Source: Agelas oroides
Lineage: Eukaryota > Porifera > Demospongiae > Agelasida > Agelasidae
DNA length: 64,000 nucleotides
Assembly (NCBI GenBank): GCA_949130485.1
Contig: OX422197.1
Span: 3,106,205 to 3,170,204, forward strand
Reading direction: 5' to 3'
Shown: piece after piece, positions 681-63,486 of the stretch
How the letters are laid out: each line of letters opens with the position of its first letter
Numbering within the stretch: the stretch's first letter is position 1
Translations under genes and position numbers: made by a program
The notes under the pieces: generated by a model
Seen by the model: only the letters and a program-made list of their open reading frames with translations
Told to the model about the DNA's origin: nothing
The model's database searches: none

Positions 681-3600
681 GTGTTATGGATGCGGGATCT
701 CCTGAAGAGAGGTATAGCTGTTCACCACAGTGGAATTCTACCCATCATCAAGGAAGTAAGGCAGTTTGAAGTCAGTGTGCACTCTGCAGTGGGTGTGGTG
801 TTCCATTGTCTTCAGACTAAGGACGTCTGAATCAGTAGCATTAGTGGAAATGTGTTTGTGCGTCCATCTCCTGATGCATCTGTTTTGTGGTTTCACACAT
901 AAACCTACCAATTCTCCTTCACCACATCAGATTTTTAGTGACCATCAAGCCTATAGTGTCCTCTATAGCTGTACTGTCTCTATGAATGTGTTGCCCCTTG
1001 TTAGCAACTACGCATGTGAATATGTATGTTTCTAACATATAGGTAATTGAGCTGTTATTCCAGAGAGGACGAGTCAAGGTAATAATTTGTTTTATCTTTA
1101 CTGAGCTACACTGAAGGATTTTTGTGTTGCTAGAATATATTCTAAGTCCTCTGTATTAGGTGATGACTAAAAGTTTCACAGCAGCTACATATATGGTTCA
1201 TAAGCTTGCATCAGATTGAGTTTTCAATCCTTCCTCTACACAGCTGCTGTTTGCCACAGAAACATTTGCCATGGGAGTGAATATGCCAGCAAGGACTGTG
1301 GTGTTTGACTCAACCAGGAAACACGATGGTGTTAAAACTAGGGATCTCCTTCCAGGTATATAGGCAGAAAGCGAAATTGCTTCAAGCACACATTTCGGGA
1401 GGAAATTCAGCCTCTTCCTAGGGTGATGTTTTGCATGTGTAGACATTGGTCTGTAAACAGAATCAGAATCGACTGAAACAAACCACATTGTGTATACATG
1501 CACTTGGAGAAGTTTCAACCATCTGTTCATCTAGGGGAGTACGTTCAGATGGCTGGCAGGGCTGGTCGCAGAGGGTTGGATACTACTGGGACAGTGATCC
1601 TGCTGTGCAAGGGAGATGTGCCTGAGGCCAGTGACCTTCACAAGATGATTCTGGTAAATATAAAACCTCTTCTTCTTCTCATAGTGCTTATACTAGGTAG
1701 AGGATAGAGGTCTAGGATTATAGATAAAGTATGATTATGGCAGCTCACCAGAAAAGGTAAATAGCAACTTGCTTGCATTTTTGGGTGAAATATACATATA
1801 CATAGATCATTTAAATATACAGAGATCATACTGCTGTTACATTTGGAAGGACAGGGTCAGTGACTGTAGTGTACTACATTCAGAATTTTTGGAGGGAAGA
1901 CTATACAGCCTATAGACTGAAAATTCGAGGGGTTGTTAAATGTCTTCATTTGTTAAAGTGCAAGAACACTTCCAAGCCTTGAAGTTGATCTGGAGCAACT
2001 ATTATGAGATCTGTGATGGTTCGGCATACTGGCAATAAAGAAGCATACTTTCCTTTGTATGCAGGGCCACCCAACTACACTGCAGTCTCAGTTCAGGCTT
2101 ACCTACAGCATGATGCTGAACCTAATGAGGGTGGAGACTCTCAGGTGAGTCAGCAGGAGCAGAGAGTGTGTCTGGAGACGTTTCCTGCATGCCAAAGAGT
2201 ATGAAATGTAGACAGTCCCCCTCTCCCTTGCACCAAAGTGGGGCATGAGTCCCTAACATGAAAGTTCGACTATCAAGCTCAATACTAGGATTGCACTATT
2301 AACTTAGCCTCGTTCCCAGGCTCTCCCCCTCCTTAACGGGGAGAGCCTGGGAACGAGGCTACTATTAACTAACACATAGCTTATTCTTTCCACAGGGTTG
2401 AAGACATGATGAAGCGCAGTTTTGCAGAAATTGACTCAGCTCGTCATGAGGTGGATCGCAAACAGGCACTGCAGGACCTGGAGCAGAGCATCAGAGAACT
2501 CCAAGAACTAGACTGTCCTATCTGCTTTGAAGACATTGACTCCTACTATAGTGCATGTGCCCGCATTACTTATCTCATGAGACAGATGCAGGTACCTTAT
2601 AGTATAAAAAAACAATAGTGATCATTGTATTCCTAGTGTGGTAAACCTGAAGTCCTGTGCAATTAGCGTATTGATACCTCGCATGACTTGTTTACAAGTT
2701 GTTGCACCTTTCAATTTGACAGACCATCATGCTGTCCACTGTTCAAGTTCTGAAAGCACTCTCACCAGGCAGGGTGGTCACAATATTCACAGCAAAGTAC
2801 CATTACTCTCTGGCAGTGATTTTGCAGCAAACTCATAAAACTGTCGACAGGTCATTCACAGTACTGATGCTGTGTAATAGTGGTGATGAAACAAAGGATG
2901 TAGCAAATTCACTGGACCAGTACAAGGGTGTGACCCCATACAAGCCACTCACCGAGCTGTTTCACCCAGAAGGTGTGGTAAAACATGCTGTGGTGGATAT
3001 TAACGGGCAGCGTATTGTGAACATAACTCAGGAAGTTCTCAGTGTGGAACCAGCAAGGATCATCGAGGACTACACCAGGAGGCAAATACCAAGATTTCAG
3101 TAGGTGTTGGGTATACAAATGTATCTGTTCTTAGTCATGAAGGCTTCTTGAGCATTGCAACACTCATGGCAATAATTTGATGCTAGCTTTCAGGCGGTTT
3201 GTAAGTCGTCTGCATTTGCATCTAAATCTCCAAAGTATGTAAGTTAACAAAAGAAAGTAAACAAGAACATGCTTAATAATTTGGATTGTCTCTTCCTTTC
3301 CAGAGATGCTCCTCCTGGTCCAGCAGCCACACGTGCCACACAAGAGCTGCTGCGACTGGTGGAGGCCCATCCCAGTGGGGATATACCCTGCTTCAACCCT
3401 GGAGTGACCAACATGGAGTATGTGGAGATGAGAGATGAGTGTCGGCAGTTTGAGCCTACGCTCGAGCTCTATGCCTGCACACGCTGCCCACACCTCACAG
3501 AACATGTGAGTCACAAGCTGATATCATATATCACTATACTTATGTTACTATGGGTTATACATATAAAAGTTAGAGTATATACGTCTTAGCACTCACACTC

Positions 3601-6458
3601 TACCCCACATCATCATGATACATGGTTTGTTTTTGAACAACTGAGATGTTGTGCGTATTATTTGCTTGCACCACATCACAACCAACTTATGTACCAGGGG
3701 TATACTTAGCCAACCTACTGTATGATATCAGGGCAAAATATTTACACTGTTTTGCTGATAGTGGCATAAGATTCTGTTACTATGTTTTTCTGTCTCTGTA
3801 TAACTTCTGCAGTTTGATGTTGCAAGAAGAAAGGCTGAACTGCAAGAGAAGCTGACCAGTCTCAAGTTTATGCTTTCTGAGGCCAGTCTGCAGTTGTTGC
3901 CAGAATACAAGCAGAGAATACAGGTCAGGAGTTTTCACTGCTTCTGTTTGAGCCCCCTCCTTTCTGAAGCAGGAATGTAGGCCCTTCTACAGGCCAGACA
4001 TTCTATTGTTTTGCACTTCATGCTGAACATGATACGTAAATATAGTAGCAACTGCTTGTTCCTTACAGGTGCTGAGGCACTTTCGTTTCATCAATTCTCA
4101 TGATACAGTAGTGTTTAAGGGCCGGGTGGCCTGTGAGGTCCATTCCCACGAGGTGCTGCTCACGGAGTTGCTCTTTCAGAATGTGTTCTCGGACTACAGT
4201 CCTGCTGAGATTGCTGCTCTACTCTCTTGTATGGTCTTCCAACAGGTGAATCCTTCAGTCAGTGAAACCCTAGCCTCGTACCTATGCAGACCTTCTCCAT
4301 TGCACTTCCTCTTTCAAGTATTATTGTGACTGCACACAAAAAAGGCCTGGGAACGAGGCTAGTGAAATCCCACCTTGTTCAAAATATCATTCATGTTTAG
4401 AGCGAGTTCAGAACAAGTGCTTGTTAATAATACCATATTGTACTTCAGAACAGTTCAAATTTTTCAGCATTGAACACGAGGTGTGGTTACGTTTTGTTTC
4501 TTCCAGGCCCCTTTTCAAATTTTCTTTCAATTATTTTATATTCCCTGTCCCATGACATGCCTATGTAAATTCTCATCCTGTATTAGCTACTACAATTATA
4601 TGCATAAGGAGACGGGTATTGGGCTGGTGTTATGGCATGATTCACTGGTTAATTTTACACACTGGTATCCACATTTCTCCAGGCAAAGTGTAGCGAGCCA
4701 AAGCTCACTGACCAGTTACAAAAGGTATCTTCGTGCACTGCTTAATTACCGTGTTAATTATTATGCTTGTACCACACTTACATATCAGTAGTGCTTGGTA
4801 TCATGTGGCTGTGTGGTTAGCCTCGGTATGAGGCTATACTGTGTGGTAGAACATTCATCTGTGATCTTATTCTTACCAAGCACACTTGTAATGTAGGAGC
4901 AGAGTTCCTCTATAGCTCATCCATGCATACAGGGCCGGCAATAGCTGGGCGTTAATAATAGATGTGCATGATATTGGCCAAAATGCATCCTGCACAGTGC
5001 ATGCATACCATCTAGGGCTACCTTTCTTCAGGGAGATGTGGTTCATTGATTGTTCATGTACAGTGAGTGCATATAATATACACACTAGTTGGAAAATGCT
5101 AAAGCACTTGTTATTTGGACTTTATATCTGCAGGGCAAGGAGGCCATTCTAGATGTGGCTGCACAGATAGCACAGACAGAGCGGCAGTTTGGCATTGATA
5201 CCTCAGTGGAAGACTACCAGAAGGAGCTCAAGTTCGGGCTAGTGGAGGTAGTCTATGAGTGGGCAAGGGAAATGGTAAGGATGTGTAGGTATATATGCAG
5301 ATGTGTTGAATCTAAGTGTGCTCAATATCCCTGCTAGTGTAACCAATGAGGAGGGAGGATTGGTTTGGGTTCTGGCAGATAAAAGTGGCACACTGTTGGG
5401 TTTGGTATAATCATGATCATCATTCTTTTGTGTTTCATAGGAATTTCTTGAGATCATCGACCTGACGGATGTTTCAGAAGGTACTTCAGTCTCATCAAGA
5501 GCCAAACTAGTCTTGTCCCCAGACCTCATCCGGCGCATATATCGCTTCCAGTATAACACGCGGGAATACTGAAAGTGATCCGCGCTGGGGTTGGTTTTGG
5601 GTCTGGGACCGAGGCTAGAGCCTAACATAGTTCAGCTCTGACAGTGTGTCAAATCGCTAATTTATCAACGAACTCTCATCAAGCTCTTGTTTTCATGCAG
5701 TTAAAAGTATGTTAGTCTCATATGCCCAGACCACACCTGCTATGGAAGGAGTGGTCTTGTTTTGTTGTTATCAATTCTTGGGAGTGTTGAGTGCTATAGC
5801 AGCCATGTAGAGGCATACTTACAAGATACAAGAATGTAGATCAGATCAGAAGTTTGTTGATTGTATCCCAACTTTTGAAAATGCTATACAAGACTGCCAC
5901 ATCCACAGAAAAGTCACACCTTAGCTGCTATCATCTATGAAAATCGCTCAACTCCGTGTTAACACAAAGTAAGGACCACCTTACAACTGGCATGCAATTA
6001 GTTCCAGGAATTGACCATTTCTTTGAAGGGAGGTACAGTATGGGCTTAACACTACTGGATTTAGCCTGCAATCTTGAAAGTGAACATCACAACAAGGTAT
6101 CATTTGGGTACTAAACTAGAAACCCACATGAAGTTTTGTTGTGTTTAATTGAGCACTAATGGTGGATCAGGCTGGATCTAGTTAGCTAAACCTAGCACAC
6201 TTGAGGTACCGTTGCACATATGCAATGCATACAGGAAATATAAAAATACGAATAAATAGAACATACATCACAACTGTATTGTACTACTGCCTTCTAGGCA
6301 TGATAGTTCGCTGCATCCAGCGTTTGGAAGAAACATGCAGAGATGTTCGCAATGCTGCCAGGGTGATAGGTGACCCAGTGCTCAAAGAAAAGATGCAGGA
6401 AGCTTCAAAGCTGATTAAGAGAGACATTGTTTTCGCTGCTAGTTTGTACACCATTTGA
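681..6458 (+). CDS. SKIC2: SKI2-type RNA helicase, C-terminal half (superkiller complex)
   Basis: Exons: 681-755, 1043-1078, 1244-1355, 1535-1653, 2065-2144, 2396-2591, 2723-3099, 3304-3505, 3813-3923, 4069-4245, 4683-4724, 5134-5274, 5441-5480, 6298-6458. All junctions are GT-AG; together they give 1869 nt, an uninterrupted 622-residue frame ending in TGA. The family protein is about 1250 residues, so the N-terminal half lies upstream of the window. The first exons carry the end of the second RecA domain: [21 protein letters not shown] and helicase motif [14 protein letters not shown]. Then follow the insertion (arm) region and the DSHCT domain with [11 protein letters not shown] and the closing [16 protein letters not shown] end (here [13 protein letters not shown]). 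SKI2 is the 3'-to-5' RNA helicase that feeds RNA to the cytoplasmic exosome in mRNA decay and quality control. Identification is firm; small exons (4683-4724, 5441-5480) were placed by phase and homology. Confidence 0.93.
2304..2361. mobile_element. palindromic micro-MITE in SKIC2 intron
   Basis: A 58-bp hairpin whose arms are TAGCCTCGTTCCCAGGC and its complement. It is flanked by a perfect 8-bp direct repeat, ctattaac, at 2296-2303 and 2362-2369. It lies only 34 bp upstream of the exon starting at 2396, so it sits where the branch point and polypyrimidine tract would normally be. Confidence 0.85.
4920..5065. repeat. dispersed repeat fragment with the motif gatgtggttcattgattg
   Basis: This intronic stretch shares its end (a block around gatgtggttcattgattg, then ttcatg) and an inner block (attggccaaaatgcatcctg) with sequences near 51800-52025 and 55890-56600. 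It is a moderately repeated family of unknown class, with no coding capacity seen. Confidence 0.5.
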
Positions 6459-12985: not shown

Positions 12986-15900
12986 TTAATTCTTGGCAAC
13001 TAAACCAGGTGATACCCCAAGAATGCAGAAGGCAGCCCATTTTGCTGGGCTACTGTCTCTAGTGAGGAGCGCAAGCATAGCTTTGTGAAGGGCATACGGA
13101 GCATCTTGATGAATTTGATACTCAGCATAAAAGTGCTTCATCAAGTCAGCTGTTGATTCATCATGAATGGACCAAAGCGTCACAATGACACAGGTAGCAC
13201 CAGCACTGAGAATCGACCTAGACAGTCCTAGTACTCCATCCCTCGTGATCTTCCCGCAAGCAGTTTTGCAGCAGCTTAGGACAAAAAGTTTGCTCTTGAG
13301 TGCAAGCTGCTGTATCTCAGCTGAAGTGAGAACTCCACTACATTGTGAATCAGATTTAGCCAAGATAATGGCACCCTTTGAAGAATAGTCCCCATCATGA
13401 TGTGGGTCAGAATCACTTTTCAAAGAAAGGTGATCAACAAGCGAGTCACTCAGAATTGCATGAGTGGCTAGATGGACAATATTATAGGAGGTGAGTTGTG
13501 ACTTTATTGCCTCTTTTGTTGCCTCACTGCCAGTAAGAAGCTTACCACCCAGGATAGATACAACAGACCGGGCTTCAAGTTCTGAGCCTGGGAGTTGTGG
13601 AATGACTGCTAAAGGCATTTGGGGGTTGCCAACTGCAAGTGCATGCAGGTCTGTATCCTTGGGGTGATCTCTAACTTTCAACAATACAAGATGAAGAAGG
13701 TGAAGTGATGGAGAGACGGAGATAACAAATTGTTCAACAAGATGTCGAGTAGGACCCTTCAAAGCTGGATATGGCACACTAAAAAGGTTACCTTGGGGAA
13801 TGAAGATAAGTCGTTGTAATTCCCTCTTGCCATCACTAGATATAGATTCCTCTATTGGTTGAAAGAGCAAGTGATACAGGCTGGAAAGCTTTTCTGCATG
13901 CACACTGCGCTTCACTTTTCGCTTCACAATGGTAAGATCTCTTGAAGATATAGTATCGTCCGATGACTCTGGGGATGCATCTAGCTTGTTGAACTGCATT
14001 TCTTCCACTCCAATTTCACGCATCATACTATCAAGGAAGCCTTCATTGAGTTCCAGATTCTTTTCAACTGCTTTCTTATCTCCGATACACACCTTTCTGA
14101 ACTCAACATCAGCTGCCTCTTTATTTGGTGCTATAAGCCAGATGTAGAGCCAAGTCTGCTTTGTGCCTTTTGCCTGCAAAAGTGGATCATCCACCAAAGA
14201 GTAAACCACAAGGTAGGAGGAAAGCATAGCAGCTAGGCACCCTACTTCCCTCATTGCATGTGACAAACCCTCAAGGTCAAGATCCCCTTGTTTATCAAAA
14301 ACACTAGCTATGGTAGCCAGAAAGTCGTCTCGTGGGTGTGACTTTACTTGGACGAGATCAGCCAAGGCACGAGCTCTCCCCATTTCAGACACTAGCAGAG
14401 CTGCTTCGGTAAGGCCCTGCTCTGCAAGAACAAACTGCAGCATTGAAAATGTTCTGGACTGGTTCTTCTCAAAATTGGCAATCTTGAGAAGGTCATCTTC
14501 TTTGCTCAGACGTGATCTGATTTCAAGGCTTGTTTGCAAGGCAAGGATTGCATACTTCTTGGCCATGTCTAGGTCATCCAAGAGAAGGTAGTCAAGTGCT
14601 AGCTCATTCTGCATTATGGAAAGGCCACCTGTATCTAATCGCTTTTGAGCATTATCTGCATAAAGCAAGTGATACTTGATAGCATCTTTGTGTCTTCCAA
14701 TGGCCCTACACGCACTTCCCATGTTACCATAGGCTGTTCCCTCTCCAAGTAGATCACCTATATCCTTTGCTAGCTCAAGAGATTTTTCAAAGAGTGGAAG
14801 GGTAAGATCATGATACCCAAGGCTATGATAAGTTTTCCCTATGTTATTCATGCACCACCTAACGCCCTGTACATCTCCAAGCTCCCTGGCTAGCTGAAGA
14901 CGTGAAGAGAGAAATACAACTGCTGTGTCATAGTCTGGTTGGTTGAGGGAGTAGTTTGTAAAACCCAAGTACCCACAGGCTAGTGCAAGGGCCGCAATGT
15001 CACCTCGATGGAGAGCAAAGTTGTAGTATATGCGCTGCCGTTTGAGGGCTTTTGCATACAACCCAGATGAACGATAAGCCCTGCCAAGCTCTGCTTTCCT
15101 TTCTGCTTCTCTAGCTTTGTCATCTAAATCCTTTGCCAATTTGATAGATTCTTTGAAGTATTTCACAGCACTGTGCCAGTCGGCAGCAGAGCGACAGATA
15201 TTGCCTAGAGCTTGCTTTAGAATTCCCTCAGTAAACTTATTGAGTGATGCATTCCCAATAAGCGGTTTCAGTTTTGCGAGTGCCTCATCGTTCTTACCTG
15301 TCATATAGGTGCATACTTGTTGGTAAATGAAAGCAAGAAGCTCACGATCAGGTGTCAAGGAAGAAGATTTCCTGGCTAAGAGCTCAGCTTTGAGGTAATG
15401 ATCCTGAGATTTGACAATACTGTTGGTAGCCCTGTGTGCATGTCCAAGAAGTAGCTCTGCTCGAAACTGGGTTTCTGTTATAGTGTATGCATATTGGTAG
15501 AACACAAAGAAGACAAAGAAGATGGTACTTGGAACAAAGAGTAGTATGATTACTGAGAGTGTACAAGAAGGGCCCACTCACCTTCTCTCTTATTTATGTA
15601 CACTCTAGGTCAAGTTTGTGGCTATAGTAACAAATTATTATGACTTAAATACATTCAAGGAGAAATTAGTCATCGCTGCTGATCAGGACCAATATAGTAC
15701 ACCCTTCCAGCTTGAAAAGTCTATGTATATATACATACATGTTATTCACATACACTATGAAGTGGTGAAACTGTGAGTATAGTATGTGCAAAAAAAGATA
15801 GTAGCCAACGTCCCTGTCCTTGTTAATGGGTCAATGAGCGCCTAGATCCTCCATGAGTCTTAACAATGAGGGAAGAAAAACTTGTTACCATGGTGATGGC

Positions 15901-18900
15901 TACTAAAGAGCAATAACTGTTTCATTTTCATTAAGTTAGCGGCTTGGGTCTTACTACAGAATCATGCAATTGTTAAAACCTTAAAAATGTCTAGTAGAGT
16001 ACTCTAGTACATGATGGCTTGCTTACATGCTTCTCCTAGCTACCACACTGTTTATTTGACAAGACTTGAAAAAACATTAAAAATGTAAATGGATGTAGGG
16101 ATGGCATGCCAAAAAGCATGCAAACAAGGTAGGGATGATATAATAGTGAAGGTAAATTAACAAAGCCTCATCCCTGCATCTTTTTCACATTAGTTTGCAA
16201 CTGTAATGTAAAAATATGTAGGGATAGGGCTTTGTAAATTTACCTTCACTATTATATCATCCCTACCTTGTTTGCATGCTTTTTGGCATGCCATCCCTAC
16301 ATCCATTTACATTTTTAATGTTTTTTCAAGTCTTGTTTCTGTACTTTTTTGATGTTAATCTCAGTTACAGTTAGACCTAAGCCTATGAAGAAATTTTTCT
16401 TTCAAAACTTGAAACGGGATTGACAATTTAGTAGTGGTTCCAAGCATATATAATAACTTTGCCAGCTAGAATCTGATGAGGGCCAACCACTCTCCGGAGC
16501 TTCGCACGATAAACCGATCTCCTGAATGTGTGGCCTGACGACTGACCAGCTGCAGCACAGTTTACTAAAGCTGTGAGTAGCTACTTTATTTAGTGTAGCT
16601 ATAAGTTAGCAGCTGAATGCAGCGCCTTACCTGTGTGGCGTTCGTAAACCTTCCCACTACGGGAAGAGACCGTGCCGGCCGTGCGCGTGGTCCACTCGCG
16701 ATTTCGCTCGTGCACTAGCCTCGTTCCCAAACAATGTGATCGTGGTATTTGGCCTGGGAACGAGACTATATGTGCGCATGCGTACAACATTAGAAAATGG
16801 CGTCCTTCGCAACGGACAGCAACCACAGAGTGTTGTGAATGGCTTTTATCGACCAGGGTGAATTTGAGACTATGAAGACGCTGAGTGGTTGGGAAGCTGC
16901 GCGCTGTGATGAGCATCCGTTTCGTGCTAAAATCAAGGTGAGTGCTTGAACCGTTTTTGAGTTATCGTTGTTTGAACAAAAGTCGTAACAAGAAAGAAAG
17001 AAAGAAAGAAAGAAGAATACGAAAAATGGCACTTTTGCTATCGCACACTTTTGTGTTTAGCTGTCTTCCGCGTGGCTTTTGGCCACTTATATGAGTCTTG
17101 CTGATCACAAAGGCACTCAAAGAGGAAGCCTGGATGCTTAAATAAACTTTTTGCGTGTTTGTGGTGAAGTTATACGGCTTTTGCTTAAGTATTGCATATA
17201 TTGCGCGTTGGCGCCATCCCTACATAGAGAGTCTACCGACTCTCTGATAGTACTATACAGTAACATTTGTTTAAATGACATGATGCGATTACACATACCA
17301 AAGTCATTATTTTGACCGTATACCCCTCTATGTCTTACTAACCAGGATTCTCAAGAGCTGCAGCTCTTTTAGAAAGGTCTTCAGCCAGCTGCACGGCTTT
17401 GGAAAGTGGTCCCACACAGAGCAATAGTTCAGTGAGCTCAAGAAGACATTCACATTCCTTAAACAAACAGAAACAAAATTAGTAACATATGAGTAGAGGT
17501 TCTGTCATAGCATGTTATGCAATTTGTAAGGCAAAACGTATACAGACTCTCTAACTAAGTTGAAGTTGCTAACTCGTTGAATTTGTCTTCACACTCTCAA
17601 AAGCACTCCCACATGCTATCACAAAAGACTGACTAAGCCATTTCCACATGCTCCGTGTGAAGCACATTATGTGTGCGCATGCATATGCCTAGTATTATTA
17701 TTGTTGAGCATACCATCAAAGGTGACAGCACTGCAGCATTGCTGATACTTTCCAAAGTACATTGAGCTGCAAAAAGGTTTGAAGACTTCAGCTGTAGTGC
17801 CTGGGACATCAGCTCATCTATTTGGTAACGTATAAGTGCATGTAGAACAAACAATCACATGCTGGTAAAGAACATACTCTACAAGTTTAGCAGTGAGAAG
17901 AATGGGAGTACTGAATGTGTTATCACATGTCCAACCCACATTAATGAATGTACGAGTTCACGGGGAAGCCTTGCAGGTATGTGCAGTTGATGAAAACTTG
18001 TCTTTTAACTATTAGTCATGTAAAAATTTGCATCATTACAAAGTCTCAGAGAATCTGCATTAAGTCATGCAAGAATCCATGTCAGGTACGTACTACATGT
18101 CATGCATGCTACACAAATCAGTTACACCAAGCTATACCGGACTTGTTTGTTACCTTCGGTTTTTATTACTCATGCTGCGTACTTGTAACAATACAGACGG
18201 TAAATCATGATACTATGGTGATACTTATATTTATACCTCTGCAGCCAATAGCCCTACAAAATTAACATGAGAATTTGGCAATACAGGTGACACATGTTGC
18301 AAAGATTTTACAAATCCTGTGCCAAGTGCGTAACTCATGAGGCAGAGTTGATTTTAGGAAAACAGACAATGGGTGCAACTGGCATGCAAGTGCTGTACTT
18401 CTGCTGGAGGCTCACTTGCTTATTTAGAGGCTTGATACTTGCTCTCCATTGCAGAAGTTGGTGGAATTGGTGTAGACTCGACCCTAGACTCTGTTGTGTC
18501 ACAGCTTTGGAGAAATTCTACTCCAAGCTGTGAGACAAAACCTGGAATGGAAACTCTTTCAGGACTTCTCTCGGTTGGCTGCAGCTGTTCAATGTTGTGT
18601 AGTTTTTCTTCAATTCCAACCACAAAAATTTTCACATCAAATCATCATAAAATGCCCTACAATGCTGCAGTCCTCTGCATTTGATGATAATTTGATGTGA
18701 AAATTGGTTGGAATTGTGGAATCGTCTACCTATGGACATTGTTTGTGCCCCTAGTTTGTGCTCTTTCAAGAAGAGGCTAAATTTCCTGTAACTGTTCAAT
18801 TGGTATCTCTGTTGGTGCTTGCACATTATTCTTCGTTTGTCTTGTTTCTGTATTCTCACTCTTTGTTTTGGGCAGCCTTTATATTAGCCGCATGGCTAGG

Positions 18901-22834: not shown

Positions 22835-23585
22835 GGCCATACCAAATTGATTTTATGTTTCACGGATTGCTTAGGTCAGAAACATGACCCGGTAGGCAGG
22901 CAAAATATAAACGAAGTGGCTAGAGAGCCGGCTGTGGAAATTACATTCTAGGGTCGATAACTTCTGATAGCAAACTCCAATTTTAATGAAACTAGTATCA
23001 GTAGATAGAGCTTTAAAAGAGCTACAAAATGATACCCTTTTCGTTAGACTGTGCCTTATATTGTCGTAAATACAAATACAAACGCTTAAAGAACCGGTAC
23101 CGGTACTTTAAGATTATGCGAAGTGAATTTTACTAGGTACGGCGGCTGTACTAAACATCTTGCTGGAAAAAAGGATATCATTTTGTAGCTCTTTTAAAGC
23201 TCTATCTACTGATACTAGTTTCATTAAAATTGGAGTTTGCTATCAGAAGTTATCGACCCTAGAATGTAATTTCCACAACCGGCTCTCTAGCCACTTCGAA
23301 ATAAAAATGACGAAACCTCTCATGAATTTAATTAGATATGCTCAGCCACACAAAACTGCTTGCCATCCTCCATCCTTGCCACGTTGTGAGTACTTAGCCT
23401 CGTTTCCAGGCCTTCGCGCGTTCGCCGCGTTCAGCGACGAACGCGCGAAGGCCTGAGAACGAGGCTAGTGAGTACCGGATTACGTGTACATATTAATTGC
23501 ATTTTTACTTTTTTTTTTCAATTTTCCAAAAAAAAGACCCGGCCGGATCCGTGAAACATAAAATCAATTTGGTATGGCCTCTGCA
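22835..23585. mobile_element. long foldback element, about 750 bp
   Basis: The left arm (about 22835-23035) is the complement of two right-arm segments (about 23165-23300 and 23550-23585). The arms match closely over more than 130 bp around ctagagagccggctgtgg and agctttaaaagagctac. The right arm is interrupted by the younger palindromic micro-MITE at 23394-23467. No open frame of note. Confidence 0.75.
23394..23467. mobile_element. 74-bp palindromic micro-MITE, nested
   Basis: TAGCCTCGTTTCCAGGCC-type arms with a GC-rich inner palindrome. A perfect 8-bp duplication gtgagtac flanks it (23386-23393, 23468-23475). It is nested in the arm of the older foldback element. Confidence 0.85.
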
Positions 23586-42097: not shown

Positions 42098-45000
42098 ATG
42101 GCTGAACAAAACTCAGTAAACTGTTACGCTACTTTACCAAGAACACGGTCTCTCCAGTTTGAAGCAGATCGTCAACGTGCCGTTACCACCACAGAGTACG
42201 AAGATCGCTGTAGGTCCGAAGCGTTAGCTGCACTCGAACTTAAGGGAGTTGAAATAGTTCATGATGCCAAAGGACCGAAGGTGCTTGGGACGGGTGCTTA
42301 CGGCTCCGTCATTGAGCTAAGATTTCGAGGTAGGTAGTGTACTTACCTTTATACTCAGGCTATCATGTTGTGTTATATTATCGCAATTGTCCATTTATTC
42401 CTTAGGCTTGAAGTGTGCTGGAAAGAAATTACATGAAGTATTCTTCAATAACGTACCTTCAAAACAGAAGATTGGAATTCTTCAACGATTTCAGGTTGAA
42501 TGTAAGTTACTCAGTCAACTACGCCATCCACATGTGGTGCAATTTCTGGGGATCTGCTACGAACGTTCAGATTCCAATATTCCGTTGTTGGTCATGGAAT
42601 ACCTCCCAATGACACTTGCAAACTGTATTGAGCGCTGCATGCCCAACAGACTTCCAGATGAAATTGCATATTCCATCCTGTACGAGGTCGCTTTAGGTCT
42701 GTGCTACTTGCACCAGCAATCTCCTCCAATCATTCACCGTGATTTGTCAGCTAATAATGTCCTCCTCACATATGACATGACAGCCAAAATATCAGATTTG
42801 GGGGTGGCTAAAATCTTGGATCTCACTCCAGCTAAGAAAACAAAAAATACCTTAACAACAGGCCCAGGCACCCCAATCTACATGCCACCAGAAGCAATGG
42901 TAACACCTCCCAACTATAGCATTGCGGTTGACGTGTTCTCCTATGGTATTCTCATTCTTCACATCTTCAGTGGGCAGTGGCCAATACCTGGGGAGGCAGT
43001 GACACCTGATCCTGACAACGTCGACAATTTGATAGCAAAATCAGAAGTTGAGCGCCGAGAGGAATACTTCCAGGGCATGGAATTAAACCACCAGCTTGTA
43101 GATTTCACAAAACGCTGTCTCCATTACCATGCTGCAATGCGGCCAACTGATTTAGAAGCTATTAAGGTGATTGAAGAACACCAAGCACTTGTTCCTCCAT
43201 CATTGAACAAGGTACAGTTGATTGAAGGAATGAAAGAGTTGAAAGTGACTAACTCAAGGTTGCATGCAGAGATTGCTAGACTTGAGCAGCAGCTTGAGAG
43301 AGCAGAACGTGCACCACTTGAAAGGGTAAGGAGCATAACCGACAGTAGCCTAAGTGGTAGTAAGCAGTCACTCACTTCTGACAGTGCGGAACGAACAAAA
43401 TTACCACCACTCACAAAACCTGCACACCACATCTCTCCTTCTGAAGTGAACAGTCAACATGGAGAAGTAGTAAGTTCACATGTGAAGTCAGCCACTAGAT
43501 CTGGAATTTGCAGAGTATTAATGTTTGACATTCTTGGTTCCTTAAATATCAGGAATGTTTGTGTGTTTGCCATGTTGGCACAGAGTCATGGCACTGCAGG
43601 TTGACCTGCATGGGCCTCCAAGCACATAGCCAACTGTTTGAGCAGCGATATACACAACGTACACCTAGCAGTTTCATTCTTTTTTTTTGTTTGTTTGTTT
43701 GTTTTTGAGGCTAAACACACCCCAAGTGGAAAGAAAAAAGGTGACTGGAATGCAGGTGGACAAACCAGTTTGTCCTGTCTATGTACAAATCATGAAGCTA
43801 ACCTATTGCACATAGTGTCAAGGCTTACCTACGATTGTGGAATAGGGAACCAAATCCAGTTAATCAGCTGGTGTGTGTCTGTGTGTGTGTGTATGGTGTG
43901 TGTGTGTGTGTGTGTCTATGTGGGTCTGTATGTGTGTGTGTGTTTTAATTAGCTACGCATGCCTGTGCATGGTGTGTGTATGTATGCATGCTAAAGTTAG
44001 CTGTGTATGCACATGTTGTGTGTATGTTGTAGTTAGAATGTGCATGCCAGTATAATATGTGTGTGTGTGGTACAATTTATTCATGGTATATTGAAATGCA
44101 GCTAAATGGATGTGTGTGGGTGGGTTTGGTAATGGTGTATGACCATACAGTTAGAAGCAAGATGGCTGAAATCCTGTGTGACTGAAATCCTGTGTGACCG
44201 TAGATCCCATTCGTGGGTGGCAAATATTTTGCCTAGTGCACTTTTTGTGGGTTAGTTGTCAGCCTTAGCACTTGGACTGTAGATACTTCTATGATAACTG
44301 CTTCTAACTGTATGGTCAAAGTTGAGTATATATTAGCCTCGTTCCCAGGCCCTGGGAACGAGGCTAAGTATATATATATATATATATATCACTGTAAAAA
44401 CAAAGTTGTTATTATAGCTAAGTAATTGGATACTATAGTTCCGTGACTATCTTACTATATGAATGCAGTGCTAAAAAAGATTCATGCAGTGAAAGTTAAT
44501 GCTTGATTTGACCTTGACCTTACAAGCCTCCCACAGAATGTTTTACAAGCACTACATTGTTTGAGTTAGCGTAGGAAGGACAGTCACGCAATTGTAGTAA
44601 CCAAATAATTTGCTAAAACCACAGTTTTGTTTTTACAGTGGGCCATGGACTGAGAAAGGCTATATAGTAAGCACATGATAGCACTCGTATGGCTTTTCTC
44701 AAATTGCTATCATTCATTACTTTTGCAAAAAAAATTCCAATTGGAGTATATATAAATTTTTCCCCCTTGGTAGTCTGTTTGCTACATTTTGACTTAAAAC
44801 AAAAACCACCCCCTAATGTCATGGTAGCATTTTCATTTATTTGATTCTTGCAGCCCCACCCTTGCCAGCCTGGTGCTACTCTCGTCTGGAGTAGGAAGTG
44901 TGCAGACCTGCCAGTGCCCATGTACCATGCCCAAGCACTAGTAATTGGAAACACTGTCTATACAGGTGGTGGATGCACAACAAAAGATCACAGCAACACA

Positions 45001-46036: not shown

Positions 46037-49000
46037 TTAATTTGCTTCATCTACATGTGCAGGCTGATCATGGTCTTGCTCAGCATGTGGTTTTGCGTGT
46101 GTCTCATTATCTTCATCAGCTCTGTCTTTTGTGGATGTCTTGGGTGCTCCATGGCCTTGGTTAGCTTTGTCAGAACCTTCTGTCGGCGTTTCATGTTCTT
46201 GGGTAATTTGCTGAGTGTGTTTTATTTGTGTCTCTGCCAGTTCGTGGGGCTCTTTCTTGTCTCCCGCTTCAGCTTCTCCACCTTTATGGCACCAACCATA
46301 TAGTTGTCTCTGGGGGGGTGGGGGGGTAATTTGTAAACATTCTACACTCACATTCTCATGCAGAATTTTTTTCTGTGCATATGCATGAAGCCACAGTGAT
46401 ATAATAGCCCACTACTCACAATCTCAGTGCTGAAACATGCTGAAAGAGTAACAAGAAAACAAACCTTAAGATCACACATGATTTGCTTGTCAAAAACAAT
46501 GACAAGAGCAAACAGTAGACCTGTAGAAGTTAGAAACATAATGCATATGCTGACGTCCTAAATCTGGTGTACACTCAATTGTTGCATGACTGTAATATAC
46601 ACTGAAGTACTGTCAGTGATCTTAGTTGTTTTACACACACAGTACACTGACAGCATGATCCATCTGCTTGCATGTGTATTATTAGTATAAATGTTTTTCA
46701 TATATATAATGTCCCATTGCCATTCCCTAATTCTTTACAGTAAAGGAGGAACGATAGTCGTTCATCTCACCTGGCAGTATGTACTGCATGAGCAAATTTC
46801 CTTTGAAACAAGATTGTGTATGGGCTATTGTGGTAGTCACATGGTTTACAAAGCACTAATTGCTGCCACCTTGCACTTTACTGCTATTTACTGTTTCATC
46901 TGTAGGACATCTGTGAGAATCACTACAACTGCTCTTGATAAGCAGGTGAGTCACTCACAAATGTTCAGTGGTTAGCTATGCTACTGACCTGAGGGTTCAT
47001 GGTCTGAGCTAGCTTCCTTTTTGGTCTCACACTCTAGTACCAAAATAAACCTCTCGTAACCTGTTTTCTCAAAACCAGGTGGGGTGGCTACTAATGGAAA
47101 TTTCCTTAAATATTCAAAATTCCAAACAACCCACCAATGAGATTCAAGACCCTTGCTTGATAAACACTAGTGTGCAAGTGTTTGTAATGTTTGGTAGTAA
47201 ATGTGCTGGGAATTGCACCTACTCTCCCCATTTCTACATATTGATGACCCTGGAGACTTCTTGCAGTATGCTCAGTACTTAATAACCATTTCTTAGGTGG
47301 GAATGGTCCACTATGGCTCAGAACAAGGGTGGGCTAAGCCATTCACTGGGTGGCAAACTTATTGTTAGTTTCCAGACTTGTGAATTAAATGAAACTGTTA
47401 GTTGCTATTATTGAAAACCCTTTAAATTTGTGACAAATACTAGCTTCATAGATCACAGGAACTCCTAATTCTAAGGCCATGCATTTTCAATGCAAGGCAT
47501 AATGCTTGCCTTGTTCCCAGGCTCCCCCACTCAAAAGTGCAAACATCACCAGGTGGAGAGATCCTGCATGGTATCTGTTCTCATGTGAGCATGATGTAAT
47601 TGGAATAGGGCCGGAATTTTTGGGAATAAAAAGGCAACATTTTGCTTGTTTTCAACCAACTATACATTCAACGCTTAATATTCACCCGCTGCTAGCTAGT
47701 ATGCTACCTGGTACCTTCACTCTTTTCGCTGTTCTGTGTCCCCCAGCATGCCCATGTGCAATTTAAGGTCTTTCTACCCCCCTTCTATATACCATTGCTT
47801 ACATGAGAAAAAATAACAGGTTCTCTCTGTCTTCACAATTTCAATGTTCGTCATATTCCAGAGCAGGGGAACCTAGGAATGAGGCTAGCATATTGCCTCA
47901 TTGTAGCTGATGAGACCTGCTACTGACCTACATCCTGCACAGTAGGGTGACTCTTAATATTCAAGGCCTGCCTTATTAGCAGGGAAATTTGGGTCGATCG
48001 TTCATACTACCACACCATGGAAGTGTGTGACAATGAAAAGTCCAAGCTTAGCAACAGCGTCATCTACCAATAAAAGTACATGGCTTCAGAACTAGGTACT
48101 TGTTTACAGGTGTCTCCATTACAAGTAAAGAGTCTGAAAGGCAAAGTATTTTGTAACCTGACCAATAAATGGGTTGCAATTATAGTAATTACCAGCCACA
48201 TACCAACATCAAGTCTGGTGGTATATCTGGCCACTGTTGTTTTACAGTGAGTGAGTTAGCTCACTCTAGTTCTGAGCTCTTCATTAATTTATTGCACTTA
48301 CCCGGAAGGGGGAGGCTAATGGCATGAAGGAACCACAGGGCAAAGTGTGCTGGTGATTCAGGATCATTAAAGCCAATTGCCAGCCGCATCCTAAGAGAAG
48401 ATATCAAAGAACATTCTGCTGACACTTTTTCATAGTCATATAGTTAGTATTATACTAGAGTATTGTTGGTTCACTCGCAGTTCTACAACATTGCCAACTG
48501 TTGCTGTGAATAAACTGCATGAGCTACTGTATATCCAGAGAGTAGCATTCCTTCAATTACTTGAGTGTCTGTGTCAGAGAAGACTTAGGCAATGTTTATG
48601 TAGCTATAATAATAGATCCGTTTGTAAACACTGCCAAGCTGGCAATAACATTGCTGTCTATCCCCATTAAGTGAAGGTGTATGCAGAAAACAATTATTAC
48701 TAAAAGTATAAAGACATCAAAACAAGCTTTCACACAAGGTTGTGTACTTGGCCACTCTGCAAGTTCCTCATTCCCAGGCCTTCAATCTCCACACAATTTG
48801 TATTGCAATCAAAGACGGCTCTGATACTATAGGACTGGAAAACAAGCCTAGCAAGTTGATTGGTTGCTCTAAATGTTGGAATGTCAGAGCACTTGACTGC
48901 GCAGATCACTGTCTCTAGGCTGGAATGTATGTATGTGGGAGTCAAGCTAAGGTTCATTGATCATGTACGTAAACAGTCTGTAAACCAGTAGTTAGAAGTA

Positions 49001-52000: not shown

Positions 52001-53434
52001 TGGTTCATTGATTGCTCATGCATGTCTATACACACAAATATGCATGTGGTAAATGCACTATGAGTTCATAGTGCAGGTGCATGGTGACTATATGCCGTGC
52101 ATGTTGGGCGCAGGGTAATGAAAGATACCTTTCAAACTTCTTCCCAGTCCTCTTGAGAAACACGGTGATCCAGAATATGTTGAAGGTTATGATGCACACC
52201 CAAAGGAAGGCAATCCAAGCTAAAGAAGTCAAACCACTGCAATATTCAATATACATTAGTACATGCATGCACGCATTCTTTGCAGAATACTTACCAGTGA
52301 GAATATGGTAAAGGCCTTGGAACATACAGAACCCCACCAGCTTGCCCATGCGAGCCATGTTAGCCACACGAGGATCAGCCTACATTAACAAAATGTTCAC
52401 TATATACTCAGTAGTATTGCTAAGTGGGCAAGCAGGTCTTATACAGAATGAGCTTAAGACTAGTGTAAACAAACTATAGGCTATTTCTTGTACACAAACA
52501 GCTCAAGTGCTTGCCATGCATACCCATGCATAGTGGATAGTATGGAAGAACACGGCGATGGTCAGGTATAGGATGAGACGCTGTAAGAGTAATGAAAGCA
52601 ACATTCAGTTAGATGCATATAGATACACATGCATGGTGTGTAGCTACATGCAGTCATCATCAACAATTTGCCTTATAGTGCATTATCAAAGTACATGTAC
52701 TAACCTAGTACTTAGCAGACAAAAATACACAATCACCTGCGGTAGAAACTTGTATTTCTTCAGTGCAACTATCACAAATATAATGAACAGGCTGCCACAA
52801 GAAGACAAGAGAGTCATTAAACATGGATGGATTGATGAATAGATTGATGGATAGATGATGGATGGATGGATGGATCTTATCTGAAAATGCAGGGTGGTAT
52901 ATAGCTACATGATGGTTTTATGTTCTTGCTGCTAGAATTTGATCTATAAATGCAGTGTTTGTTTTAAAAGTCAGTGAATGGCTGCAAATGAAACCCTGGC
53001 GTCTGAAATATGATAAGACTAATTCTCACCAGGAGATCAGAGAAAGAACAGCAATTGCTCGACGGCACCACACAATGGCTTCCTGCATGTGTGCAACAGA
53101 ATCATACTAGTTGAGTAGTAGCTAGAACCATCATTCACAATCATGCATCTTGTAAGTTAGTCTCGCAAAGCCAGACCCACTTCCGCAAAGTGGGTCTGGC
53201 TTGCGAGACTATCTTGTGATCACAAGACACAATGTAAGGCAATCTAAAACTGTACACCGCATCTGCTAGACTGCATGGCGTCTTCGACCGTTGCGGATCG
53301 AAGACGCCAGTGTAGAGAATTAAATAGCCTTTTACACATAAGGAGATGGAAGAAAACGCCAAGCACTCCACAACATCTGTCGAGTTGGAGGCATTGGAGA
53401 GGTTGCTGAGTAAATAATCGCCGCTTCCAGACAT
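46037..53434 (-). CDS. seven-transmembrane receptor, cAMP-receptor-like (class E type)
   Basis: Exons in order: 53434-53336, 53082-53030, 52791-52737, 52580-52524, 52379-52295, 52219-52129, 51651-51562, 51491-51429, 51350-51272, 51169-51110, 51044-50962, 48390-48302, 46520-46465, 46309-46037. They sum to 1233 nt, 410 residues, with all 14 junctions in phase. The N-terminus has Asn-rich glycosylation sites (NLSNASNST). Seven apolar helices follow (for example AVLSLISCLFIIFVIVAL; LILYLTIAVFFHTIHYAW; WMVLCVVVATFLIAISCVI; LWFLHAISLPLPGLLFALV). YGPAGLWCWI after helix 4 is the diagnostic motif of the Dictyostelium cAMP-receptor/GPR157-like families. The 90-residue tail is acidic, His-rich and disordered. 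It is convergent with kinase-kelch A (254 bp apart). Ligand is unknown. Confidence 0.85.
49053..49802 (+). mobile_element. dispersed repeat unit, copy B
   Basis: Aligns with 23727-24441, including the starting hairpin, the CTT run and the ORF start. Here the MRNV-led frame (49691 onward) is continuous into one YWKNPEK unit, then homology ends and the frame stops soon after. Truncated relative to copy A. Lies in an intron of the receptor gene. Confidence 0.65.
50201..50883. mobile_element. long-TIR DNA element, copy 2 (683 bp)
   Basis: Terminal inverted repeats of about 130 bp match those of 31896-32974, with the same start AACAAGTCACAAAAAAGTTT. The interior is CA-rich on the plus strand and partly shared with copy 1 (acaagacaaccc). 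No coding capacity. Lies in an intron of the receptor gene. Confidence 0.8.
53158..53211. repeat. TAGTC-type hairpin near the receptor first exon
   Basis: 54-bp hairpin with arms TAGTCTCGCAAAGCCAGACC and complement. Flanks tcttgtaa and tcttgtga are similar, suggesting a decayed target-site duplication. It lies in intron 1 of the receptor gene. Confidence 0.75.
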
Positions 53435-58149: not shown

Positions 58150-60220
58150 CTGGTGGATAGATATATAAATTCTTGCACGCTTCATTATGGTCTGTCTACT
58201 GGGAACATGAACCTCCCCATTCAGATATCAGCGTACGGGCGTGATCATCCCCCCCCCCCCCCTCAAAATTACATCATGCTTGCAAAGAGCTACCACAGAC
58301 AATTGTCTGTGGTACGTAACTCTTTGCTTCTTAATAAAGCTTGATGGAATTGTGAGGGGATGATGGATAGTTATGGAACCAGATAATAGTCAGCAAATGG
58401 GCCATAAGAAATGGTATACATGTGCATTAGCTAGAAGACAACTGTTTAGCTGTTTGCTTCTTAATTAATGAAGCTTGATGGAATTGTGAGGGAGATGATG
58501 GATGGTGATTACAGTTTCTTCATAGTCTATATTCACCAGTTCAATGAACCCTGAAACTGGAGTAAGCACTCTGTGAGGTTATATTACTTTAACCAAGTAA
58601 TTTTTTCAGTGATATAGCTAGCTAGCTACTGGCTTGCTACACTGAAAAAACTACAAAATCCCCTTTTGATCTTGGTCGCAAATCCTTCTATCGGCGACAT
58701 GTAAGTGACTAACCCTTGTATATAAGGTGGGAAACACAAGGCAGTAGGTGGCAGTGTTATAGACAACATCAGATTAATCAATGCTGTGATATCTTAGGTG
58801 TCCAGGTAATATGTACCCCTTTACTTCGTTCTTAGTAGCTTCTTAACTCGAATTTAACTCAACTCATGGCTGTTTATCTGCATGGCATGTTCTAGCTGTC
58901 AACTCTTTCAATTGCTACCCTCATCCTGTACATGGTCATGCCTTGCTGTCATATTATACACTTTCTGTTCCTTCCCCAATGCTGACTCACAGTTATATCA
59001 TCCTCCACCTTTCATCGTTCTTTGTTTGCATTGCATGGGTGGGCATATGTTTGAATGAAGCACTTCAGGGGAAAAAAATGCTATTTTAGGATAGTGCTTT
59101 CCTAATTGCATGATAAGTAACTTGTTCTCTTCACTGCACAAAAGGTCTTAATGCACAATTACTACTAAAGCAAAACCTCAAGAAACAGAACAATGTTGTT
59201 GGTCTGGATCATGTTGAACTTCTTCACCTGCAAAACTGCCCTTCCAGTTACATCCTGTCCTTGCAAATAGCTAGTTTTCACTTGCTAGGAGCAGTCCTGG
59301 AATTTTCTTATGCTTCTTGATGAGATGTCATATTACTAGCTATTAGCTACTATCTCTGTATTCATGAACATAATGCACTTGCATTGGCTGTACATACATT
59401 TAAGTATGTTACACAGTGGCTATCTCACCCTTATGGAAAAATGAAGCATTTTCCTCCACAGAAGTGCCTAGCTATAGGGATTGTGTGTCAACTACAATGG
59501 AGCACAAATATAACACCAAACACTGTAAAAACAAAATTGTGGTTTTAGCAAATTATTTGGTTACTACAATTGCGTGACTGTCCTTTCTATGCTAATTCAA
59601 AGAATGTAGTGCTTGTAAAAACATTTCATGGGAGGCTAGTAAAGTTTATTCAAGCATCAGCTCCCACTGCATGAATTCTTTTCCAGCGCTGCATTCATAA
59701 AATTTGCATAGTAAGGATAGTCACGCAACTGTAGTAACCAAATACTTAGCTAAAATAACAACTTTGTTTTTGCAGTGAACACTTTAGAATTTTCTTGCCA
59801 TAGCTGAAATGCAAGATTTGTTTGACATGAGGCAGATAAAGGGGGTTGCGAAGGCTGCTGATTGTCTGGTGGTTGCATGTCAGTGGTCAGGACAATGGTG
59901 GCTCAAGCCAGGGACCATGTGTTCACATGCAAATGCTGGCATTTTCACTTTCCTCTTAGCCATTTGCCACATACTGAAAATTCAAATGTTTGTGGTAGTA
60001 GTCTACACATTAAATTTGTTGGGGTACTAGTGCAAGGTAATTACACCTGGCAGTGTTATCAACCATAATCCACCCGTATATCTTGACCTCGATCATAGAC
60101 TACATTAAACCATGACCGTCTTTTATGCCTCGTATACCAGATGTCACATGACTATTTCCGTACTTGAAGTATTGTGCATGTGAACGAAGTGCATCCCGTA
60201 TGCATGGTACCGCGATTAGT
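58150..60220. other. intergenic before kinase-kelch B
   Basis: No certain exon. Includes a 14-base poly-C (58249-58262) and a short inverted repeat around it (agagctaccacagacaattg and complement, 58285-58325). Two diverged copies of a block (ttaatgaagcttgatggaattgtg) occur at about 58330 and 58465, and a MITE at 59521-59777. It should contain the copy B promoter. Confidence 0.4.
59521..59777. mobile_element. CACTGTAAAAACAAA-type MITE, copy 2
   Basis: 257 bp with the same terminal repeats as 44390-44640. It lies upstream of kinase-kelch copy B, whereas copy 1 is inside copy A, so these are independent insertions. Confidence 0.75.
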
Positions 60221-61575
60221 ATGGCAGAGGAAAGGCATCACGCAACTCTTCTGAGAACACGCTCTTCCAAGCCAGAACGTAAACGTTCCGCTACCACCAC
60301 AGGGTACGAAGAACGATATAGATCCGATGCGTTAACTGCATTCGAACTTAAAAGAATTGAAATAGTTCATGATGCAGAAAACCCGGAAACCCCCAAGGTG
60401 CTTGGGACGGGTGCTTACGGTTCCGTCATTGAGCTAAGATTTCGAGGTGGGTTACATACCTTATTCTACTGGTATTGATAATATTAGATTCGGCAATTGT
60501 CTATTCATACTTAGGCTTGAAGTGTGCTGGAAAGAAATTACATGATATATTCTTTGCTGAAGTATCCTCCAAAGAGAAGATTGGAATTCTTCAACGATTT
60601 CAGGTTGAATGTAAGTTACTCAGTCAACTACGCCATCCACATGTGGTGCAATTTCTGGGAATCTGCTACGAACGTTCAGATTCCAATATTCCGTTGTTGG
60701 TCATGGAATACCTCCCAATGACACTTGCAAACTGTATTGAGCGCTGTATGCCCAACAGACTTCCAGATGAAATTGCATACTCCATCCTGTACGAGGTCGC
60801 TTTAGGTCTGTGCTACTTGCACCAGCAATCTCCTCCAATCATTCACCGTGATTTGTCAGCTAATAATGTCCTCCTCACATATGACATGACAGCTAAGATA
60901 TCAGATTTGGGGGTGGCTAAAATTTTGGATGTCACTCCAGCAAAGAAAACCAAAAATCCCCTAACAACGGGCCCAGGCACTCCAATCTACATGCCACCAG
61001 AAGCAATGACGCGTTCCCCCAACTATAGCACTGCGGTTGATGTATTCTCCTTTGGTGTTCTCATTCTTCACATCTTTAGTGGCAAGTTGCCAGAACCTAG
61101 GGAGCCAGTGACGCCTGATCCTGTCAACATAGACAAGTTGATAGCAATATCGGAAGCCCAGCGCCGAGAGGAATACTTCCAGGGCATGGAATTAAGCCAC
61201 CAGCAGCTTGTAGAGTTCACAAAGCGCTGTCTCCATAACCACCCTAAAAAGAGGCCAGATGATGTTGAAGTTATTGAGGTAATTGAAGCATTGGTTCCTC
61301 CATCATTGGACAAGGTGCAGTTGATTGAAGGAATGAAAAAACTGAACGCTACCAACTCAATGTTGCATACAGAACTTGCTAGACTTGAGAAGCAGCTTGA
61401 AACACCAGAACGTACACCACTTGAAAGGGAGAGGAGCATAGCCCACAGTCTGAGCCTAAGTAGTAGTAAGCAGTCACTCACTTCTGACAGTGTGGAACGA
61501 ACAAAATTACCACCACTCACAAAACCTGCACACCACATCTCTCCTTCTGAAGTGAACAGTCAACATGGAGAAGTA
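60221..61575 (+). CDS. TKL-type kinase, tandem copy B (kelch exon outside window)
   Basis: Exons 60221-60446 and 60515-61575 join in phase (429 codons) and end at the same in-frame donor (GTA before gtaagt) as copy A. The kinase core is almost identical to copy A in DNA and protein, including GTGAYGSV, HRDLSANN and DLG. The N-terminus and the region after the kinase differ more. The coiled coil and Ser-rich linker are kept. No kelch exon follows within the window. However, the last 60 bases (63940-64000) match the copy A intron at about 44235-44290, roughly 570 bp before its kelch exon. The gene is therefore probably complete but cut by the window edge. Without that exon, translation would read through the donor and stop at 61612-61614. 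Confidence 0.85.
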
Positions 61576-61746
61576 GTAAGTTCACATTCAAATTTACTTT
61601 TACTGTGCATGTGAAGTCAGGCACTGGAATAGATTGCAAACCTTTAGTGTCATTGGGAATATATATGTGTTTGCCTTTCCAAGTTGACACAGTAACATGT
61701 ATAGTACATACTATTATAATATTATCGTGAATGACCAATATTATTA

Positions 61747-62230: not shown

Positions 62231-62515
62231 TATTAAGTTGAAAAATAGGCAATATTTAGTTTCATGCATGGGTAGCAACGTACCTGCAAATTTTCGTCTT
62301 GAAACCCAGGCCTCCTTGTGACTTTCACTAATTCCACCCAAAGTGGAAAAAAAAAGTAATTATTAATGAAAAGCCACAAAAGTGCATGTGTTTGTCCAAT
62401 GTTTTAGCTTTCTTTCCAAGCCTGAGAGGACTTACTGAACTTTGACACCACAGCTAGATACAGTTGTCATTGAAGTATTTATCTTTGGTTAAAGCGCTAA
62501 TTATATATGTATATA

Positions 62516-62761: not shown

Positions 62762-63486
62762 AGGGGCAGCGGAAGGTACTTGAGATTGGGGGGGCAGCAA
62801 GGATGGTGCGTGCGTAAGCACGCACACGCTAGGGGGGTCTGGGGGCATGCCCCCCCAGAAAATTTTTTTTTAAATTAGGTGCTCTGAGATCGCTTCTGAG
62901 GCCATATTTGTACCCAAATGCCACTAGTCCGACTAGAGTACATGGCGAGAGTAATACCTCCGTTTGCCACGATACATGTCAGTCATCACGAGGCGTTTCA
63001 GTCACTATAGTCGACCGTACATGGCGGGCCTGATGAGGTGGGCATCTTATAGACGAATTGACGACCTGGACAAGAACAGTTTCTACTTTGTACTACACTC
63101 TGAAACTAGTTCAGTGATCACCACGCCTAACAGCTTGAAGGGGGGCAGTGCAGTGGCAGTGCACGTGTTTGTCTAATTAAAAGTAAATAAACTTATCCAG
63201 TCACACCCACAGGAAAACCTACTACGACCTAGTCTCGCGGCTACGCGAGACTAACTACGACGATGGTTTGTGCTGGATACCGTACGGTAAGTAAACGACG
63301 CATCATTGACACTGGCATTTTGATAGTAACTGTTGTATATTATTACACATCAAGTAAGCAGTAGCCATCTTTGGATTGGGGGGGCAAGGCCCCCCCAATC
63401 TGTACTTTGGGGGGGAATTCGCCCCCCCTGCCCCCCTGCCCCCCCTGCTCTGCCCCCCCTGCCCCCCCTGCTCCGCCGCCCCTGTC
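62762..63486. mobile_element. CAGGGGC-type MITE with G/C-run ends
   Basis: Begins CAGGGGCAGCGGA and ends CCGCCGCCCCTG. Long G runs lie near the left end and C runs with tandem tgccccccc units near the right end (63371-63480). Termini of this form are common in non-autonomous hAT-like elements of invertebrates. It hosts a nested 25-bp palindromic insertion at 63229. Confidence 0.65.
63229..63253. mobile_element. 25-bp palindromic micro-MITE
   Basis: The inserted unit is little more than TAGTCTCGCG joined to its complement through a 4-base centre. It is flanked by a perfect 8-bp duplication, actacgac (63221-63228 and 63254-63261). It is the shortest member of the family in this window. Confidence 0.8.

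Follow-up and report, generated by a model that had tools for sequence, protein, structure and literature searches.

Features of the window

The window, by which we mean the whole 64,000-nucleotide stretch of Agelas oroides DNA that was analysed (C15:3106205-3170204 in a 259-Mb assembly of 141 contigs), contains several long open reading frames and a series of short palindromic elements. A frame of 1669 aa lies on the minus strand at 25226-30235 and is presumably a Ty3/gypsy-type gag-pol, going by its motifs. The 863-aa TPR/CHAT frame at 12986-15577, on the minus strand, has a closest relative at 92% identity and a relative in Geodia barretti at 53%. Two kinase-like frames on the plus strand, at 42321-43604 and 60433-61614, lie about 17 kb apart and are very similar by eye, which suggests a local duplication. 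Two palindromic elements with CACTGTAAAAACAAA ends occupy 44390-44640 and 59521-59777, and one of them lies close to the 33-bp unit described below.

The elements that are the subject of this work begin with TAGYCTCG and end with CGAGRCTA. A preliminary description of the window had listed five of them as insertions with exact 8-bp duplications, and all five are present at its coordinates with these ends. The 8-bp identity is real in five of five, but it requires that the base before TAG be counted in the element, on the left side only, and the true length of the duplication is 9 bp. When the ends are read symmetrically, from TAG to CTA, the 9-bp duplication is exact in three of the five and matches at 8/9 bases in the elements at 23395-23467 and 63230-63253.

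The first of the five is an apparent 57-bp palindromic remnant (2305-2361, minus strand), in which the terminal hairpin of a longer family is fused to the opposite terminus; it is flanked by the 9-bp duplication CTATTAACT, with the left copy at 2296-2304 and the right copy at 2362-2370. Its reverse complement matches the end of an element at locus L075 over 46 of the 57 bases at 93% and then continues into the opposite terminus; beyond the match L075 runs into other sequence, and its far end lies outside the sequence examined. The inner stems of two hairpin ends would be direct repeats, so that one deletion would be enough to give the form seen at 2305-2361. The second, a 387-bp member with hairpin ends and inverted ends of about 78 bp, occupies 20385-20771 between 9/9 copies of ATGGTAGAC. 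The third is a 73-bp member at 23395-23467 with the duplication GTGAGTACT/GTGAGTACC. It lies in a larger repeat (22835-23579, inverted ends GGCCATACC) that is partly common to locus L094, where the same insertion is found as a 95-bp copy (930-1024). The fourth is a 33-bp member (16 + 1 + 16) at 44334-44366 with AGTATATAT on both sides; it is situated in a TA microsatellite, which makes its duplication weaker evidence. A comparison of 32 short elements gave no specific parent for this unit or for most other short copies. The fifth, of 24 bp, lies at 63230-63253 inside a dispersed repeat and carries the duplication ACTACGACC/ACTACGACG.

Three further members were absent from the preliminary description: one of 91 bp at 4271-4361 (GTGAAACCC/GTGAAATCC, 8/9), one of 110 bp at 5508-5617 (GAGCCAAAC/GAGCCTAAC, 8/9) and an older one of 382 bp at 47506-47887, whose ends have 2 and 1 mismatches (GCATAATGC/GCATATTGC, 8/9). 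Three shifted controls gave no such members. A 54-bp palindrome of the TAGTCTCGCAAGCCAGACCC type at 53158-53211 has no 9-bp duplication; its flanks, TCTTGTAA/TCTTGTGA, agree at 7/8 bases with two extra bases on the left. The motif TAGYCTCG occurs 21 times in the window, where shuffles give an expectation of 1.31. A chance origin of the insertions is excluded by the shuffles and the shifted controls.

Length of the target duplication

We determined the length of the duplication in several ways. Pairs of ends were counted in a sample of 264 kb comprising the window and 20 stretches of 10 kb from C1-C4. With exact ends, 12 of 23 pairs were flanked by a 9-bp repeat that has no more than one mismatch, and none had a repeat of 7, 8 or 10 bp or a repeat at any of six shifted positions. 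When one mismatch per end was allowed, 21 of 162 pairs had a 9-bp repeat, the controls giving 1, 0 and 1 at 7, 8 and 10 bp and none at six shifts. In a scan that was blind to the end sequence, 7 of the 8 matches at 9 bp had TAGYCT ends, as against none of the 11 matches at 8 bp; of the three matches at 7 bp two start with CTAGCC, and the single match at 11 bp starts with AGCCTC. For a test of the ninth base, pairs were chosen on the first 8 bases alone and repeats of fewer than three letters were dropped. The ninth base agrees in 26 of the 30 pairs that match at the first 8, about 8 being expected by chance (p ~3e-12 against random composition). The target bias in these pairs is weak, with a purine at the start in 23/30 and a pyrimidine at the end in 23/30.

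The 17-mer TAGCCTCGTTCCCAGGC, which matches exactly at 14,907 places in the 259-Mb genome while the reversed control matches nowhere, provided another sample, namely 60 stretches of 301 bp at places 9-68 of the matches listed. A partner end and a 9-bp duplication are present in 15 of the 60, with controls of 2, 1 and 1 at 7, 8 and 10 bp and none at five offsets. Some of the remaining 45 resemble longer elements with the far end beyond the stretch, and in L038, L040, L051 and L053 a partner end can be made out by eye, together with a repeat that is poorer or out of register. Repeated segments account for 14 of the 60 stretches (11 share one flank and 3 share another), and none of these 14 has a duplication. 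The 11 recur as the same element with the same flank in a repeated segment at G000:C1:1.25-1.43 Mb.

The hAT superfamily characteristically produces 8-bp target duplications, and the preliminary description had proposed that a hAT-type transposase acts in trans on these units. The abundance of the hAT domain in the genome (at least 150 matches, from the best 150 of 249 candidates) would favour such a source. The duplication is 9 bp and not 8, however, in the end-blind scan, the exact-end pairs, the 60 stretches and the ninth-base test; it therefore argues against a hAT origin, which we have rejected, and fits a transposon of the Mutator/Foldback kind.

Abundance and structure of longer members

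The elements constitute a large group of DNA transposons with TAG(C/T)CTCG ends and a 9-bp target duplication, non-coding in the copies read. Extrapolated from 21 in 264 kb, the number of copies in the genome that bear a duplication, whatever their length, is about 20,600. The members of about 300-830 bp have the features of MITEs, being short, with inverted ends, a duplication, a high copy number and a non-coding character that is judged from length only.

In the longer members read (about 300-830 bp) each end is itself an inverted repeat, consisting of the TAGYCTCG terminus, a few bases, a CCAGRC-like stem, a loop and a return stem GYCTGG, followed by the interior. Four ends were folded, giving three clear hairpins and a weaker one in L012. 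An 831-bp copy in L091 has a 9/9 duplication and is almost entirely palindromic, its two halves agreeing at 389 of 422 aligned columns. It is the one copy for which inverted ends of the foldback type, long and internally repeated or palindromic, were shown. Across the window and 26 loci of 3-10 kb, no pair of ends separated by more than 1.2 kb had a duplication, and autonomous copies, if any, are therefore uncommon. Four chimeras (L019:1862-1963, L046:37-128, L048:37-97 and L092:4171-4253) have ends that match two families, as judged from the short-element comparison and in L092 by eye, and have kept a duplication of 8-9/9.

Empty sites and same-site size differences

The joined flanks of 29 insertions were compared with all the sequence examined, and related unfilled sites were found for two of them. 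For the 303-bp insertion at L021 477-779, five related sites span the insertion point, four with a single 9-mer at 8-9/9 and one with a 4-base gap. For the 41-bp insertion at L014 2577-2617, two related sites have a single 9-mer at 9/9 and 8/9. The empty sites fit, and these two insertions and their duplications are therefore real. The preliminary description is borne out to this extent, that the elements are transposase-type insertions with target duplications and non-coding as far as read.

Several short copies share their ends with longer ones and differ in their internal junctions. Three short relatives of the 831-bp copy, for example, measure 97, 91 and 110 bp, and each has a junction of its own. 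Two same-site series also differ in internal length. In the first, L094 930-1024 and window 23395-23467 have the same flanks and duplication, and the main difference between the 95 and 73 bp is a 23-base internal gap beside CTGCA direct repeats. The 95-bp copy has the fuller hairpin, from which we infer that the change went from 95 to 73 bp. The second series lies in copies of another repeat, where the insertion measures 53 bp in both L014 and L024 and 40 bp in L022; its site has no clear duplication. A dispersed palindromic repeat with ends GGATGGCATGCCAAAAAG is represented by L014:2276-2844, L022:3919-4434, L024:6093-6528, L021:1138-1673 and window 16099-16296, and copies of it carry TAGYCTCG insertions. 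A stub of 19 bp at L011 1735-1753 has a perfect duplication and reads as one end with a deletion between AGGC repeats.

One variant of the view that the stubs are remnants places the loss at excision, through incomplete gap repair, so that the stubs would be excision scars and not products of later slippage. Junctions with an overlap of 1-2 bases, or with three unexplained bases in L008, favour this variant, as does L036, whose right end may be missing precisely as far as the duplication (8/9); incomplete gap repair and MITEs are also named together in the excerpts of the literature available. Existing stubs, however, show further losses of 3, 5 and 13 bases that need no excision, and we treat excision scars as a possible but somewhat doubtful source.

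The 24-bp unit and its carrier

The 24-bp unit at 63230-63253 corresponds to the two ends of a 305-bp element in L006, with 10 bp from one and 14 bp from the other; these ends match it over 10 and 15 bases with 1 base overlapping. A search for TAGYCTCGCG-N0-12-CGCGAGRCTA gave 58 places in the genome and none for the control. The exact 24-mer is present at 45 of the 50 places listed among the 58, the window's own included; the other five are a one-base variant and four forms of 26, 30, 31 and 32 bp. Around the 32-mer there is a separate duplication, which is perfect; that of the 30-mer matches at 8/9 and that of the 26-mer at 7/9, and the 31-mer has none in register.

Forty-five identical copies might be taken as proof of mobility, and we rejected them as such because all 20 examined copies, of the other 44, share the flanks of the window's 24-mer. 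Per side, 55-71 bases are identical of 62-71 aligned (in L111 one side only, 29/29), and the same duplication is present with 0-2 mismatches in all examined copies except L108, which has an extra insertion in the left copy. Judging by these flanks, the 24-mer looks like one old insertion that was copied along with its host repeat. Two same-site relatives have shrunk to 21 and 19 bp, with 3 and 5 bases lost. Two carrier copies that are free of the 24-mer, L119 and L120, mismatch the predicted empty site, and no carrier with the full-length 305-bp version was found among the best 40 of 88 candidates.

These observations bear on the claim of the preliminary description that movement needs nothing beyond the ends. 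The claim is not supported by the 24-bp unit, which fits a deletion remnant that reached its other sites inside a larger repeat, or by the 73-bp unit, which has a longer relative at the same site, and the same is true of the scarcity of recurring forms described below.

Recurrence of short forms

A search for TAGCCTCGTTCCCAGG-N0-14-CCTGGGAACGAGGCTA gave 114 places in the genome and none for the control. The 50 places listed among the 114 comprise 35 distinct sequences of 32-46 bp, of which 29 are single and six recur, three of the six with two copies each. One 43-mer recurs five times, and in 5/5 copies the 12-base flanks are identical and the imperfect duplication is the same. Another 43-mer is present at three unrelated sites; at the first it has a perfect 9-bp duplication, and at the other two, of which one has inverted flanks, it has none. 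This 43-mer is the best remaining case for the movement of a short form, and its sequence also allows that the same deletion could have occurred repeatedly through a 3-base GCC repeat in an end of the L083 type. A tandem array at G000:C7:896207-896687, which takes up seven of the 50 places, consists of seven identical 40-bp palindromes with a period of 49 bp (the element plus 9 bases) and a gap of three units, and is apparently made of the element and its duplication.

We considered whether the units of 24-74 bp can move in their own right, with a hAT transposase acting on them in trans and requiring no more than the paired ends. They are real insertions with duplications, the 41-bp copy has fitting empty sites, and one 43-mer occurs at three unrelated sites with one perfect duplication, all of which favours mobile units. 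Against this, the recurring 24-mer (20/20) and the five-copy 43-mer (5/5) share their flanks, 29 of the 35 distinct short forms among the places listed are single, and sizes differ at one and the same site. Together with the length of the duplication, this makes the proposal highly improbable to us.

A narrower alternative is that the hairpin-only palindromes of about 40-110 bp are a separately mobile class of MITEs and that only the stubs shorter than about 40 bp arose as remnants of deletion. Hairpin-only forms are common with perfect duplications, and similar forms are found at independent sites, such as the three-site 43-mer and the palindrome at window 53158 (54 bp), which shows 86% identity with a 57-bp copy at an unrelated site (L075 144-200, duplication 8/9). 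However, the junctions differ among all three short relatives of the 831-bp copy, the deletion route predicts the same products, and no two of more than 46 bp are identical among the 32 short elements compared, a small sample. We consider a separate class of this kind unlikely.

Still more doubtful, in our opinion, is that transposition extends to some of the palindromic stubs of about 40 bp, which might move as extruded hairpins whose ends would not have to bend around a stiff duplex; the three-site 43-mer would be the first case. Should this be true, mobile stubs of about 40 bp would be far shorter than transposons are expected to work at, and if any 40-bp form is mobile the lower size limit of cut-and-paste transposition needs rethinking.

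Relationship to known transposons

Based on the duplication of about 9 bp, the TAGYCTCG group likely belongs to the Mutator (MULE) superfamily. The MULE transposase domain has 119 matches in the genome. None of the ten MULE loci examined has the transposase inside TAGYCTCG ends, and no autonomous element with ends of this group was found; one MULE locus, L095:1629-5792, has 76-bp inverted ends GGTCGTTACTAAAACCCG, starting with GGTCGTTAC, that are unlike those of the group. The end sequence has two matches in viral contigs, neither with a partner end.

A literature search gave no match to the terminal sequence. Searches on sponge MITEs gave no description of TAGYCTCG elements among the records listed, and their absence from print is stated on these and neighbouring searches only. 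Searches on short palindromic MITEs gave no useful match, and one on the smallest MITEs gave unrelated matches only, among those listed. As far as the available parts of two articles go, one treats mitochondrial DNA only (PMC11572364) and the other has nothing about sponges or palindromes (PMC8277862).

The following comparisons draw on the accessible portions of the articles cited. Tm1, a Mutator/Foldback family of root-knot nematodes, resembles the group in its composite inverted ends of variable length, its short terminal motifs, its duplications of 8-10 and mostly 9 bp and its MITE-like members. It differs in having members with a putative transposase, and stubs of 19-33 bp are not described for Tm1 in the portion available; the comparison is one of descriptions (PMC3169594). 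Tetris of Drosophila virilis, reported with DAIBAM, is likewise a non-autonomous foldback element with duplications of 8-10 bp whose autonomous partner was not found, and it was placed in Mutator from the length of its duplication; its ends carry repeats of about 220 bp, whereas TAGYCTCG ends are short hairpins (PMC4079207). Galileo of Drosophila shares very variable end lengths, deletion gradients down to copies consisting of ends only, and chimeras. It belongs to the P-element superfamily and makes 7-bp duplications, and its chimeras are described without matching duplications, whereas the four two-family chimeras found here keep 8-9/9 (PMC3573991). The hairpin-forming repeats of sponge mitochondria are also short hairpins in sponge DNA but are mitochondrial, and the accessible text reports no duplication for sponges; here too the comparison is one of descriptions (PMC2800124).

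Origin and significance of the short units

We find it quite probable that the short units are worn-down leftovers of larger foldback transposons, shrunk in place, rather than the smallest moving elements. For stubs under 35 bp an origin as remnants is very likely, and the forms of 40-110 bp are probably remnants as well. Insertion would be carried out by a transposase in trans, probably a Mutator-like one. After insertion the palindromes would lose their middle, through slippage or microhomology-mediated deletion across the hairpins or through incomplete gap repair after excision, and the direct repeats provided by the hairpin ends would favour products made of one hairpin and both termini. 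Further loss would lead to stubs of 19-74 bp, still flanked by the original duplication, and the stubs would reach other sites mainly through copying of the host repeat.

The TAGYCTCG group is ordinary in kind and instructive in detail. It shows how a foldback group, when abundant, can leave palindromes of 20-70 bp scattered over a genome, where they resemble miniature transposons with perfect duplications and are probably leftovers. For an animal genome the stubs provide a natural record of how palindromes are lost, and they are a warning that the size of an element at one locus is not necessarily the size that moved.
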